From Cryobacterium glaciale (GTDB lineage: Bacteria > Actinomycetota > Actinomycetes > Actinomycetales > Microbacteriaceae), in contig NZ_SOEY01000016.1 in NCBI RefSeq assembly GCF_004402535.1, positions 62,001 through 126,000 on the forward strand: DNA of 64,000 bases, given 5' to 3'. Each line of letters begins with the position of its first letter. The first letter of the stretch is position 1. The position numbers and the translations under genes are program-made. Positions 9,598 through 43,931 of this stretch are shown in pieces. The notes below the pieces were generated by a model that ran no database searches, was not told the origin of the DNA, and saw nothing but the letters and a program-made list of their open reading frames with translations.

Positions 9598-9654
9598 CAT
9601 TTCGGTGTGGCGCATGGTGTCGGTTCCGCAACGTTCGGCGATTACCCCGCGGTC
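9598..9654 (-). pseudogene. tsaB fragment, inverted and decayed
   Basis: On the minus strand this encodes DRGVIAERCGTDTMRHTE, matching residues 19-36 of the intact TsaB encoded at 11924 (ARGVIAERGEADTMRHAE). It is joined directly to the TSUP fragment at 9655, with no counterpart of the ~286 bp that separate the two matched pieces in the intact locus. It has no start and cannot be functional. Confidence 0.85.
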
Positions 9655-9981
9655 CAGGTTTGCCATGCCGGCCAGAACGTTTTTGGCCCCGTTGGCTCGG
9701 TGCATGTCGGTGGACCAGAGTATGCCCAGCAGCGCAAGCAGTACCACGCCCTGAGCGGCGCCGAAGTATCCCCAGTAGACCCCGGTACCGAGAATGCCGA
9801 GCACGAGACCGAACGTGATCGGCCGGGTATCGGCGGCGGCGTGGTCGGGTGCCTTGCGGCGAACGTAGCGCGCCACGCGAGGCTGGACTGCCGAGAGCAG
9901 CGCGGCCAGCAACAGTAAAAACGGCACGATCGCGAAAAAGGCTTCTTCGAGCAAAATGAGCAGCATCAAACCGCCGACCAC
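9655..9981 (-). pseudogene. TSUP exporter internal fragment, inverted copy of the gene at 11110
   Basis: These 327 bp on the minus strand encode 109 residues that align without gaps to residues 86-194 of the TSUP protein at 11110, with 10 differences by my reading. The copy lacks the N-terminal 85 and C-terminal 61 residues and carries disruptive changes such as Pro to Leu in LPEEAF and Gly to Trp in VYGGYF. It and the tsaB fragment form one inverted, internally deleted copy of the 11365-12031 region. This explains the otherwise gene-free stretch 9590-9995. Confidence 0.9.
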
Positions 9982-9995
9982 ACCGCTGGGCCGAA

Positions 9996-11109: not shown

Positions 11110-11877
11110 ATGACTCTCCTTGAAGGCGCGATCATCCTGGTCGCCGGTATTGCCGCTGGCATCATCAATGTGGTCGCCGGCGCTGGAACCCTGATCACCT
11201 TTCCCACCCTGCTCGCACTCGGCATCCCACCGATTACCGCGAACGTGTCCAACACCGTTGGTCTGGTTCCCGGGTCGGTTGCCGGTGCTTACGGGTACCG
11301 CCGGGAACTCACGTCACAGTGGCGGCCGGTGGCCTGGATGGCCGTGTTCTCGGCCGTGGGAGGTGTGATCGGGGGGCTGCTGCTGCTGATTCTGCCCGAG
11401 GAAGCCTTCTCGGCGATCGTTCCGTTCCTGCTGCTGCTGGCGGCGCTGCTCTCCGCGATCCAGCCTCGTGTGGCCCGTTACGTGCGACGCAAGGCCCCGG
11501 AAGGTACCGGCGCCGATACTCGCCCAATCACCTTCGGCCTGGTACTCGGCATTCTAGGCACGGGGGTCTACGGGGGATACTTCGGTGCAGCGCAGGGTGT
11601 GGTGCTGCTGGCGCTGCTGGGCATTCTGTGGTCCACCGACATGCACCGGGCCAACGGTGCCAAGAACGTGCTGGCCGGCATGGCCAACCTCGTCTCCGCG
11701 ATTATTTTCATCTCCAGCGGCACCGTGGACTGGGTGATCGCCCTGTTGATCGGCGTGGGGTCCGCATTCGGTGGCTGGCTCGGTGCCCGCATCGGTCGGC
11801 GGCTGTCGGCTCCGGTGTTGCGCGCGATCCTCGTGATCGTTGCCCTGACCGCGGCCGTCGTGCTGTTTCTGACGTGA
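11110..11877 (+). CDS. TSUP (TauE/SafE) family membrane exporter, copy 2
   Basis: 255-aa, roughly eight-segment membrane protein. The family half-repeat motifs are visible as GIINVVAGAGTLITFPTLL near the N-terminus and GVYGGYFGAAQGVVLLALLG after the midpoint. It is more distant from the exporter at 3800 than from the inverted fragment at 9655-9981, which is a partial copy of this gene. It follows the MDR gene by 26 bp and precedes tsaB by 46 bp. Substrate unknown; family members export sulfite, sulfoacetate or similar anions. Confidence 0.9.
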   Translation: MTLLEGAIILVAGIAAGIINVVAGAGTLITFPTLLALGIPPITANVSNTVGLVPGSVAGAYGYRRELTSQWRPVAWMAVFSAVGGVIGGLLLLILPEEAFSAIVPFLLLLAALLSAIQPRVARYVRRKAPEGTGADTRPITFGLVLGILGTGVYGGYFGAAQGVVLLALLGILWSTDMHRANGAKNVLAGMANLVSAIIFISSGTVDWVIALLIGVGSAFGGWLGARIGRRLSAPVLRAILVIVALTAAVVLFLT

Positions 11878-30617: not shown

Positions 30618-32348
30618 ATGGCCTCCCACAATTCGGTCACCCGGTCCACAAAATTGGGGCCTGAGGAGCGGGTCGCCGCTCTCGCCAAGCTCAAAGAGAA
30701 AGAGCTCGACATCCTCGTCGTCGGCGGCGGCATCGTCGGCGCCGGGGCAGCCCTCGATGCCGTCACCCGAGGTCTGAGCGTCGGAATCCTCGAGGCGCGG
30801 GACTGGGCGTCTGGCACGTCCAGCCGGTCGTCCAAGCTCGTGCACGGCGGCATCCGCTATCTGGAGCAGCTCGACTTTCGCCTCGTGCGTGAGGCGCTCA
30901 CCGAGCGGGGGCTGCTGCTGCAGCGCATCGCGCCGCACCTGGTGAAGCCGGTGCGGTTTCTATACCCGCTCAAGAAACGGTTCATCGAACGGTTCTACAT
31001 CGGTACCGGCATGCTGCTCTACGACATCTTCTCCTACACCGGTGGCCGCCCGCCCGGCGTGCCGCACCACCGCCACCTATCCAGAGCTCAGGTACAGAAG
31101 CTCATTCCGAGCCTCGCCAACAACGCACTGGTCGGCGGCATCACCTACTACGACGCCCAGGTTGACGACGCCCGCTATGTGTCGTCACTCGTGCGCACGG
31201 CCTCGTTCTATGGGGCTCACGCTGCCAGCCGGGTGCGGGTCGAGGGCTTCATCAAGGTGGGGGAGCGCGTCGTCGGCGTGCGGGCCCACGACCTGCAGAC
31301 CGATGAACGCTTCGACGTGCGGGCCAAGCAGGTCGTGAACGCGACCGGTGTCTGGACCGACGACACCCAACGCATGGTCGGCGAACGTGGCACCTTCAAG
31401 GTGCGCGCGTCGAAGGGCGTGCACCTCGTGGTGCCGCGCGACCGGTTTCAGAGCGCCATGGGGCTGCTGCTGCGCACCGAGAAGAGCGTTCTGTTCGTGA
31501 TTCCCTGGGGACGGCACTGGCTCATCGGCACGACCGACACCGACTGGCACCTGGACAAGGCGCACCCGGCCGCGACAGCGGCCGACATCGACTACATCCT
31601 CGAACACATCAACTCTGTGCTGAGCGTGCCGCTTACCCGCGAAGATGTCGAGGGGGTCTATGCCGGGCTGCGTCCGCTGCTGGCCGGCGAGAGCGACCAA
31701 ACCTCCAAGCTGTCCCGCGAACACCTCGTCGGACACTCGGTGCCCGGCCTCGTCGTGATCGCCGGCGGCAAGTGGACCACCTACCGCATCATGGCCAAAG
31801 ACGCAGTGGATGCCGCGGCATCGGCCCTCGACGGCCGCATTCCGGCGTCGACGACCCAGAACATCCCCCTGCTGGGCGCTGAGGGATATCAGGCCGCGTG
31901 GAACAAGCGCGGCAAGATCGCGCGGGCCTTCGGGCTGCACACCGTGCGGGTGGAACACCTGCTCAACCGCTACGGCACCCTCACCGACGAACTGCTCGAC
32001 CTCATTCGCGACAACCCGGCACTCGCCGAACCGTTGCCCGGAGCCGACGACTACATCGGTGCGGAGGTGGTCTACGCGGCCTCGCACGAGGGCGCGCTGC
32101 ACCTGGAAGACGTGCTCGCCCGCCGCACCCGTATCTCGATCGAAGCCTGGGACCGCGGGGTATCGGCCGCCCCGGTCGCCGCAGCGCTCATGGCCGGTGT
32201 GCTTGGCTGGGACCAGGAGCGCATCGACCGCGAGGTCGGCTTCTACCTCACCCGGGTCGCCGCCGAACGGGCGTCGCAGGAGGAGCCCGACGACGAATCC
32301 GCCGACCGGGTGCGACTCGAGGCCCCCGACATCATGGTCACCAACTAG
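30618..32348 (+). CDS. glpD: Glycerol-3-phosphate dehydrogenase
   Basis: 576-aa flavoprotein that oxidises sn-glycerol-3-phosphate to dihydroxyacetone phosphate and feeds electrons to the quinone pool at the membrane. The FAD dinucleotide fold VVGGGIVGAGAALDAV is near residue 33. SSRSSKLVHGGIRYLEQ and the C-terminal DAO_C domain complete the signature. Ribosome site CAGGAGC lies before the ATG. 49 bp after its stop begins the first copy of the 58-nt stem-loop. Confidence 0.96.
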   Translation: MASHNSVTRSTKLGPEERVAALAKLKEKELDILVVGGGIVGAGAALDAVTRGLSVGILEARDWASGTSSRSSKLVHGGIRYLEQLDFRLVREALTERGLLLQRIAPHLVKPVRFLYPLKKRFIERFYIGTGMLLYDIFSYTGGRPPGVPHHRHLSRAQVQKLIPSLANNALVGGITYYDAQVDDARYVSSLVRTASFYGAHAASRVRVEGFIKVGERVVGVRAHDLQTDERFDVRAKQVVNATGVWTDDTQRMVGERGTFKVRASKGVHLVVPRDRFQSAMGLLLRTEKSVLFVIPWGRHWLIGTTDTDWHLDKAHPAATAADIDYILEHINSVLSVPLTREDVEGVYAGLRPLLAGESDQTSKLSREHLVGHSVPGLVVIAGGKWTTYRIMAKDAVDAAASALDGRIPASTTQNIPLLGAEGYQAAWNKRGKIARAFGLHTVRVEHLLNRYGTLTDELLDLIRDNPALAEPLPGADDYIGAEVVYAASHEGALHLEDVLARRTRISIEAWDRGVSAAPVAAALMAGVLGWDQERIDREVGFYLTRVAAERASQEEPDDESADRVRLEAPDIMVTN

Positions 32349-32397
32349 AGCCCGCGCCGGCGGCCAGGGGTGGTGAGCTGCCGCCCCCGTCATGACC

Positions 32398-32455
32398 GCG
32401 CCCGGTTTGGGTGCGCGCTACGGTAATCGGCGTAGCGCCTACCGAAATGGGGCGC
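32398..32455 (+). repeat. 58-nt stem-loop element, copy 1
   Basis: Two 25-nt arms around the loop GTAATCGG. The inner 8 bp GCGCTACG/CGTAGCGC are perfect; across the whole arm 20 Watson-Crick and 2 G-U pairs of 25 positions form. With 7 more matching bases upstream it is part of a 65-bp direct repeat (32391-32455) with 33608-33672, one mismatch. It flanks the AbiEi-like gene on its 3' side. Confidence 0.9.
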
Positions 32456-32554
32456 ACTCACGGTGTGGTTCCGTTTTCGGCGCTGCCGGCATCCGCTGGG
32501 CAGGCGCCGCATTGGGCGCAGGTGCGCTTGCACCGCTAGGCAGCGCGGTCGCAA

Positions 32555-33532
32555 CTATCGCGCGCCGCGGGGGATTCCGTGGCTGCGCAGGAACTCGCCG
32601 AAGACGGACAGGTCGCGGGCGATCTTCCAATCCCACCGCGCAAATGTCGGTCCGAGCGCCCGCACGCGGTCCTCGCGGTCCTTCTCCGCCATCACGACCT
32701 GTGCCGTTGTGAGGCCGCGCGTGTACTCCTCCTTGACGTACTTGCCGAGGCCGTCGAACTCTCCGACCTTGCTGATCGAGCGCCAGAAGAAGTCGACGAA
32801 GGCGATGAAGCCTGCGGCGTCGTCGAAACGCACCTGTAATTCTGGAGCCTCGAATCCGAGCAGATCGATGTTGGCTCGGCTGACCGATTCGCCGCCCGAG
32901 CCTGATTGCGTAGACGCGAACTGGACCACTCGGAGCGCTGTCGCCCGTCCCTTCACCCGCGCCGGACCGGCGAGGGCCTCGAGCGACCGATCCAGGTCCT
33001 CGCGAGTCGCCAAGCTGACGCCCCGCCGGGGAATATGGATGGCACGATCCATCATCGCGACGGCATCTGCAAACGGCAGAACGCGGGCCATTTCGACCGC
33101 GGTGTCAGCGACCGTTGTCACCCGAAGCCCGTCGCGTTCGACGACCCGTGGCGGCGGTCCCGCAGTGTGCCGAACGACCCCGTGTCGCGAACGGCCGCCG
33201 GATGCCTCGGGGACGGTGATGTGGACATCCGTCGGCCAGGCCGCGGGTCGCGGCAACCCCCAGATCGCCGCCGCGGAATGGTGCGAGAACACCGGCGCTT
33301 CAGGACTGATCGCGGCGTAGGCGCGAATGCGACACAGATAGCGAGCGTTCGGGCTGAGCGTCGACCACACACTGGTGCCCACATAGACCCCGTAACGGAT
33401 GCGCACCAACTGGCCCCGCGAGAATTCACGGCGCAATTCCTGATCGAGGCCGACCGCCGCCGCGTCGCAGCGCAACACCAGGCCATCTGCTCGCGTTATG
33501 GCCATGAGGGGATCCACGGATGCGACTGTCAT
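32555..33532 (-). CDS. AbiEi-type HTH protein with PD-(D/E)XK-like C-terminal motifs
   Basis: 325 aa from ATG 33532; an upstream ATG at 33610 adds residues that do not look conserved, and ATG 33505 is also possible. Residues about 28-55 (VGLDQELRREFSRGQLVRIRYGVYV) match the AbiEi antitoxin N-terminal winged-helix domain. The C-terminal third has GGESVSR (Glu215), FVDFFW (Asp247) and GEFDGLGKY (Glu258, Asp260, Lys264), a spacing compatible with a PD-(D/E)XK nuclease core. No AbiEii nucleotidyltransferase is adjacent, so it is not a standard TA pair. The gene is bracketed by 65-bp direct repeats, inserted between glpD and the antiporter genes. Confidence 0.75.
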   Translation of the reverse strand: MTVASVDPLMAITRADGLVLRCDAAAVGLDQELRREFSRGQLVRIRYGVYVGTSVWSTLSPNARYLCRIRAYAAISPEAPVFSHHSAAAIWGLPRPAAWPTDVHITVPEASGGRSRHGVVRHTAGPPPRVVERDGLRVTTVADTAVEMARVLPFADAVAMMDRAIHIPRRGVSLATREDLDRSLEALAGPARVKGRATALRVVQFASTQSGSGGESVSRANIDLLGFEAPELQVRFDDAAGFIAFVDFFWRSISKVGEFDGLGKYVKEEYTRGLTTAQVVMAEKDREDRVRALGPTFARWDWKIARDLSVFGEFLRSHGIPRGAR

Positions 33533-33614
33533 GACGGGAGAGTGGCACATGAGGTGTCTGGTTCGACTGCTCTGGCACAATCTGTGCATAACTCGGTGGC
33601 CGATCGGCATGAGC

Positions 33615-33672
33615 GCGCCCGGTTTGGGTGCGCGCTACGGTAATCGGCGTAGCGCCTACCGAAATGGGGCGC
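33615..33672 (+). repeat. 58-nt stem-loop element, copy 2
   Basis: Identical to copy 1 over the 58 nt, in the same orientation, 1217 bp downstream. It lies just upstream of the AbiEi-like gene. GGGCATCCGCTGGGC follows directly; a similar string follows copy 1 at a distance. Confidence 0.9.
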
Positions 33673-33713
33673 GGGCATCCGCTGGGCGCGGCGGTAAAAA
33701 CGGCTCCGATAGA

Positions 33714-38661: not shown

Positions 38662-38718
38662 GTGTGCCGGGTCGGGGCATCCGCTCGTGGCCGCGCCCTG
38701 TGCTGCCCGGCGATAGCC

Positions 38719-38776
38719 GCGCCCCGGATCGGCAGCCGCTACGGTAATCGGCGTAGCGGCCACCCGTTTCAGGCGC
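38719..38776 (+). repeat. 58-nt stem-loop element, copy 3 (diverged)
   Basis: Same 25-8-25 geometry and identical loop GTAATCGG. The inner stem is CCGCTACG/CGTAGCGG: its outermost pair is swapped from G-C to C-G relative to copies 1 and 2, a compensatory change. About 17 Watson-Crick and 3 G-U pairs remain of 25. It lies between guaA and a small membrane gene. Confidence 0.8.
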
Positions 38777-38793
38777 GCCCATGCGAATGCGCC

Positions 38794-43648: not shown

Positions 43649-43897
43649 ATGACGCGCACCCGCATTCTTGGCGGAACGGCCTGGCTCGGTCGCGAGATCG
43701 TCCGCCAGTTGATTGCCCGAGGCGAACAGGTGACCCGCCTCGCGCGCGGCGAGGCGGGGGATTTTGCAGACGGCGTGACGAGCATCCGCTCTGATCGACG
43801 TGCACCCGGGGCGTACGACCGAGTCGCCGAAACCCGCTGGGACCGAGTCATCGAGCTGTCCTATGACGCTGAGCTCGTCGCCGGAGCGCTCGCGTAG
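43649..43897 (+). pseudogene. NAD-dependent epimerase/reductase, truncated after 82 residues
   Basis: Starts as a normal short-chain epimerase: TRILGGTAWLGREIVRQLIARG (GxxGxxG dinucleotide fold), then VTRLARGEAG, APGAYDRVAETRWDRVIELSYDAELVAGAL. Intact relatives continue for about 230 more residues; here a TAG follows at 43895. That stop lies inside the right arm of a 58-nt stem-loop element, so the gene was cut where the element begins. Confidence 0.82.
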
Positions 43898-43917
43898 CGG
43901 CTGCCGAAATGGGGCGC
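43893..43917 (+). repeat. 58-nt stem-loop element, right half only
   Basis: CGTAGCGG followed by CTGCCGAAATGGGGCGC matches the 25-nt right arm of the element (copies 1 and 2 have CTACCGAAATGGGGCGC). The left arm and loop are absent; the truncated epimerase occupies that side. Confidence 0.75.
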
Positions 43918-43931
43918 GGCCATCCGTTCGG

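Follow-up and report, generated by a model that had tools for sequence, protein, structure and literature searches.

The 58-nt stem-loops of Cryobacterium glaciale are probably short DNA palindromes of the REP or palindromic-unit type, which apparently occur in this genus without a RAYT and have an IS1397-like partner in related species. The evidence comes from the copies in the window (the whole 64,000-nt stretch analyzed), from their counterparts in 57 Cryobacterium genomes, and from a clade of insertion sequences (ISs) that uses such palindromes as targets. Genomes and loci are designated below by G and L numbers, respectively.

Copies in the window

The initial annotation described three full copies, at 32398-32455, 33615-33672, and 38719-38776, and a half copy near 43893-43917, and all of these are present. 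The 25-8-25 geometry proposed for them is found as a core in the three full copies, but the element itself is longer. Since the pairing of the arms extends to about 30 bp on each side of the 8-nt centre, we describe it as a near-palindrome of about 68 bp. The features are the following:

32393..32460, + strand: copy 1, 30-8-30, 79.0 bits; its 25-8-25 core is 32398-32455
33610..33677, + strand: copy 2, 88.0 bits; in the divergent gap upstream of the TrkA_C gene
38714..38781, + strand: copy 3, 70.7 bits; downstream of the guaA stop
43892..43924, + strand: half element, right arm with the left partner missing; lone arm 20.3 bits; repeat families D12 and I3
38687..38699, + strand: upstream of copy 3; GTGGCCGCGCCCT, a possible remnant of an earlier left outer arm

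With up to three mismatches allowed, the core CTACGGTAATCGGCGTAG occurs three times in the window; 100 shuffles contain it 0.00 times on average. Copies 1 and 2 show no differences across 58 nt, and copies 1 and 3 share 69% identity across 68 nt. In copy 1, inspection by eye agrees with the earlier count of 22 paired positions out of 25 in the arms, two of them being G-U, and the mismatches are G-G, G-G, and C-C. The RNA folding z values are -4.7, -5.7, and -2.3 for copies 1, 2, and 3, respectively, and +1.6 for the half copy. Scored for palindromic symmetry alone, copies 1 and 2 (20/26 and 21/26) lie above nearly all Markov controls; copy 3 taken alone (18/26) does not, such palindromes being found 4-8 times per shuffled window.

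Copy 1 is located in a convergent gap, between the stop of a glycerol-3-phosphate dehydrogenase-like gene at 32348 and a minus-strand gene that ends at 32555. Upstream of copy 3, the guaA gene is identified by NF000848 (773 bits), and a terminator-like hairpin followed by a T-run can be seen by eye between its stop and the copy. In the comparison of the regions downstream of guaA, also made by eye, some other species have the left arm of their own element at the position of the possible relic (38687..38699). The window additionally contains an inverted repeat of 344 nt (9641-9984 / 11362-11705), whose arms are 81% complementary and 1377 nt apart.

Distribution in the genome, the genus, and the family

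The own genome of the window comprises 35 contigs and 3.7 Mb, and just the three window sites in it have the core in exact form. With two to three mismatches the core is found at three more places, and the reversed control likewise gives 3. The covariance-model search suggested in the initial annotation did yield further copies, namely 12 distinct elements in the own genome (22 both-strand matches of model R2 at E <= 0.05) and matches of model R1 at E <= 0.01 in 31 of the 57 Cryobacterium genomes, with a maximum of 74 both-strand matches per genome. The pairing is kept in these copies across the two subfamilies described below. Model R1 was built from 12 sequences, L010 being excluded because of an insertion, and L009 and the second match of L012 being taken as chance. 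Model R2 was built from 35 copies of both subfamilies; these were hand-picked and ungapped, and its pair counts therefore lean to complete elements.

Tandem pairs, 94-155 bp apart, are found in G407 and G412. Composite units, in which a full palindrome is followed by an extra half arm, are repeated nearby in G437 (positions 3000-3900 of L075 and 4180-4520 of L070), the two units of L070 having a spacing of 248 bp.

An exact scan with a degenerate core over one genome per species (84,980 species) returned 57 stretches, all of them from Cryobacterium; the A-type core was found in this genus only. Model R2, applied at E <= 0.001 to 160 evenly drawn genomes of the family, gave matches in 13, three being Cryobacterium and ten belonging to nine other genera. 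The sequences fetched outside Cryobacterium (L252-L266; G108, G140, G152, and G089, from three of the nine genera) are palindromes of similar length that have a sequence of their own and GCGC modules, G152 having three long ones inside about 0.4 kb. They may or may not be homologous to the Cryobacterium element, since a strong hairpin of any kind scores well with a palindromic model.

Anatomy, subfamilies, and symmetry

Read outward, both arms follow a near-identical consensus, GTAGCGSCYACCCRTWTCGGGCGCGSTCA, as derived from 64 elements after removal of the four that lack the exact core. The foot of the element is mostly TGACCGCGCCC, and GTAG is found next to the loop. The 8-nt loop, initially considered constant, is so in the three copies of the window, but it is mostly GTAAYSGS in the genus, and the loops of the own genome vary. 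Among 89 unique elements, the loop with its closing bases takes the forms GGTAACCGGC (21 elements), GGTAACGGCC (15), GGTAATCGGC (9), CGTAACGGCC (8), and GGTAACGGGC (8). In subfamily B, the inner stem and the loop change together, to GCGCCAGTAATAGTTGGAGC and similar sequences, and these elements occupy the same orthologous places. The own genome carries both subfamily types.

The R1 set, which represents one subfamily with 12 sequences, shows covariation no higher than that of shuffled columns. When 35 sequences of both subfamilies are considered, two-sided pair changes amount to 98 cells vs 48.3 +/- 4.7 in the shuffles (0/500 reach this number), and the pairs with a two-sided change are weakly raised (17 vs 14.8, reached by 37/500), the shuffles being of a kind that does not keep relatedness. 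The excess of two-sided cells indicates that the symmetry outlasts changes in the sequence. Three processes would each give this result, namely selection for a hairpin, a site for a dimeric protein, and mutational quasipalindrome correction. The symmetry could also arise via template switching instead of selection.

A third palindrome family, family C, has the form GGACAATTGCGCCCGG-4 nt-CCGGGCGCAATTGTCC and is unrelated in sequence. Its 4-nt loops are mostly alternating, such as TACG, TGCG, and TGTG. It is present in 13 of the 57 genomes (including G409, G433, and G435), at 1-65 places per genome, and each of these 13 has at most two R1 matches, family C and the family of the window being nearly exclusive of one another.

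Genomic context

The element is intergenic, resides chiefly at gene 3′ ends, and is found in excess between convergent genes. Of the 89 unique elements in the fetched loci, 1 overlaps a called gene, while 37 lie in convergent, 31 in codirectional, and 7 in divergent gaps, and 13 at locus edges; genes were called with a home-made codon-usage caller, and loci were fetched for part of the model matches. Among gaps of 90-600 nt, the convergent, codirectional, and divergent ones number 30, 24, and 5 with an element and 15, 84, and 49 without (Fisher p about 1e-9), the background consisting of gaps from the same neighbourhoods because the loci were fetched for holding elements.

Both the excess in convergent gaps and the strong folding (z to -5.7) would suit a hairpin selected at the RNA level, that is, either the structured RNA that the initial annotation had also suggested or a 3′-end processing or termination hairpin. 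We consider this unlikely. Rfam gives 0 matches above the gathering score in the window, and on the loop-oriented strand G-U pairs do not outnumber A-C mismatches (112 vs 115 in 84 of the 89 elements, the other five having a different core length and being left out). Equal numbers of G-U and A-C speak against selection on one RNA strand. Moreover, none of the three window copies has a T-run after its hairpin, the copy at guaA is downstream of the separate terminator-like hairpin mentioned above, and 5 of the 59 element-bearing gaps are divergent.

Insertion of an IS3-family clade at the dyads

A search with a lone arm revealed in G437 two half elements that enclose a 1538-bp IS, whose ORFB belongs to the IS3-family transposases (NF033516, 178 bits with a cut-off of 160; Pfam rve). 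A search for the clade in the 57 genomes gave 27 IS matches in 10 genomes. No IS of the clade was found in the own genome at E <= 1e-60; the link to the IS is therefore seen in the relatives only, and the interpretation of the half copy in the window as an IS remnant was rejected on this ground.

In the relatives, the IS3-family clade inserts exactly at the dyads of palindromes. Of the 27 matches, 19 are insertions with both ends resolved (seven in G437, one in G193, four in G423, six in G432, and one in G409). In every one of these, the 4-bp target site has its midpoint on the best dyad that the site shows once emptied of the IS, the offset being 0.0. The 4-bp duplication is exact in 15 of them, and the flanking tetramers differ in four. 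The pairing of the dyad is better than in all 200 same-site shuffles for 12 of the emptied sites and not above the best of the 200 for seven (L155, L159, L162, L165, L169, L150, and L170), so that individual dyads vary in strength, while the position does not.

Four types of target palindrome are used, namely A (G437 and G193), C (G423 and five insertions in G432), GCGCCGCTTCGCGGGTGGC (G409), and GGCTGGATGCGCCCC (L160 in G432). Over 1558 bp, the IS at L160 does not differ from the copies at L157 and L168, both of them inserted in type C. The seven IS copies of G437 are identical among themselves, as are the four of G423. The resolved set does not comprise L148 and L156, which are at contig ends, nor L163, L151, L152, L153, L154, and L171. 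Judged by eye, the flanks of L148, L156, and L163 are of family C, and those of L152 have a symmetry that is off the predicted centre; L153 has no evident palindrome. A distant relative of the IS, found in G427 (40% identical), has no obvious palindrome at its ends.

It is possible, although we put the idea forward only tentatively, that the transposase of the clade reads the dyad structure of a palindrome rather than its sequence, perhaps as an extruded cruciform or hairpin, and makes cuts staggered by 4 bp around its exact centre. The unrelated palindromes that replace each other at the same sites would in that case be structure-coded safe harbours, kept and multiplied without a RAYT.

Fixed sites and mobility

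Several copies occupy the identical place in different species, as judged by eye. The sites downstream of guaA and of copies 1 and 2 were compared in 30 of the 57 genomes. Downstream of guaA, the palindrome is by eye of subfamily A in G000, G426, and G427 and of subfamily B in G193, G402, G412, G344, and G420; it is shortened in G406 and G411, and none is seen in, e.g., G418, G078, G425, and G428. Upstream of the TrkA_C gene, a significant palindrome is present in 14 of the 28 testable genomes (two of the 30 regions were too short), with several unrelated sequences. At this place, an inverted repeat with a CCAATTCGACGGAGAT-like arm is visible by eye in L194 (G403), L190 (G419), and L199 (G421).

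At the sites of copies 1 and 2, all nine genomes that hold elements at both carry one subfamily per genome. The likeness of the two copies within a genome is 0.832, vs 0.701 for permuted pairs (0/5000 permutations, nine genomes), and the mean likeness of orthologous copies is 0.675 and 0.690. This comparison uses 25 hand-picked elements out of 34 distinct ones (67 both-strand matches), with one of the two tandem site-1 copies taken for G412 and G407, and with L188, L210, L192, L198, L201, L228, and L183:152 omitted. Local recombination suffices to account for the concordance, because the two sites are just ~1.2 kb apart. Genome-wide concerted evolution was rejected, as the concordance is limited to this pair and the own genome has both types. 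In G412, subfamily B is found at the guaA site and A at copies 1 and 2; given such discordance outside the pair, only a local homogenisation is claimed.

Copies 1 and 2 flank a gene of 351 aa (32555-33610, - strand) that has no match in Pfam or NCBIfam. The gene and both flanking copies are absent in G418, and in G420 the gene is absent and one degenerate palindrome-like sequence is left, which is not significant in the palindrome test (both observations by eye). A cassette-like gene of unknown family in this arrangement brings to mind site-specific recombination at an attC-like or lox-like site whose central spacer is asymmetric. The conserved asymmetric centre and the half copies, which break at or near it, would be in line with such a role. 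However, homologous recombination between direct repeats explains the loss of the gene equally well, the IS insertion accounts for two of the half copies in G437, and most copies are not seen to flank an insert. A recombination site is, in our judgment, very improbable.

With respect to transposition, the non-autonomous mobile repeat (REP/MITE-like) of the initial annotation is borne out in its REP-like part, the element being palindromic, intergenic, repeated, single or in tandem, and an IS target in relatives, but not as to its mobility. No clean empty site was found for the palindrome. Direct repeats of at least four bases flank 22 of the 89 elements, compared to a mean of 19.5 in shuffled pairings, a count so near the shuffled one that a target duplication is not evident; a MITE with target duplication is disfavoured on this basis. 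More generally, the inverted-repeat architecture, the dispersed copies, and the tandem pairs of G407 and G412 could be taken to represent a MITE, i.e., nearly abutting 30-bp terminal inverted repeats moved in trans by a transposase. Apart from the flanking repeats, the sharing of sites between species speaks against this, as does the sole linked IS: its ends are different, and the palindrome is its target of insertion and not its frame. We regard a MITE as quite unlikely. The check for a linked RAYT that had been recommended was negative: at the sensitivity of Pfam, the Y1 transposase domain (PF01797 Y1_Tnp, E <= 0.001) is found in 0 of the 57 genus genomes, the positive control being detected in 5 of 14 known genomes. 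Mobilisation by a RAYT was accordingly rejected.

Comparison with known systems

REP elements and RAYT transposases are known mainly from Gammaproteobacteria, and REPs prefer the 3′ ends of genes. Like the REP, PU, and BIME sequences of Enterobacteria and Pseudomonas, as described in the available parts of PMC1525189 and PMC2817692, the present elements are short extragenic palindromes that occur singly and in tandem and serve as IS targets. The available part of PMC2817692 lists REPs with a GTAG or GTGG start and RAYT partners, usually at >100 copies per genome. The Cryobacterium element differs from these in being a single hairpin of ~68 bp, in its low copy number (12 in the own genome and at most 74 both-strand matches elsewhere), in the absence of a GTAG/GTGG foot at the 5′ end, in that the Y1 transposase was not found in the 57 genomes of the genus, and in that different Cryobacterium clades carry unrelated palindrome families. 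It works like a palindromic unit, but since three REP features failed (the copy number, the 5′ tetranucleotide, and the RAYT), we do not class it with the REPs of the RAYT type. With MITEs, it shares being a small non-coding inverted repeat in several copies, but flanking duplications are not in excess, and no autonomous partner is known for it.

As regards the IS, the available part of PMC1525189 reports that IS1397 targets the REPs of E. coli and ISKpn1 those of Klebsiella, that targeting of REPs is known in five IS families, IS3 included, and that the transposases of IS1397 and ISKpn1 appear to be responsible for the target specificity. The Cryobacterium clade resembles these two in having an IS3-family transposase and in inserting specifically into intergenic palindromes (compare the same part of PMC1525189). 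Unlike them, it inserts into palindromes of at least four unrelated types, with the dyad as the exact midpoint of the 4-bp site, and ISs identical over 1558 bp have used two types in one genome. Our literature search found no palindromic repeat of this kind described for Cryobacterium; in the part of PMC7381226 available to it, the term "palindromic" concerns CRISPR alone.

Implications

The palindromes may persist because symmetric hairpins at transcription-unit ends are tolerated or mildly useful. IS elements would have evolved to exploit them as places where insertion does no harm, in the way that IS1397 exploits the palindromic units of E. coli, and the copies would be homogenised by local recombination together with quasipalindrome correction or template switching, rather than by a dedicated transposase. 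Whether the IS chooses its target by sequence or by symmetry is directly testable, because an IS identical over 1558 bp has used two unrelated palindromes.

Cryobacterium thus probably represents an actinobacterial genus with a REP-type repeat, in which the Y1 transposase was not found and the sequence families of the repeat are clade-specific and nearly exclusive of one another, while one IS clade, common to the palindrome families, lands exactly on their centres.
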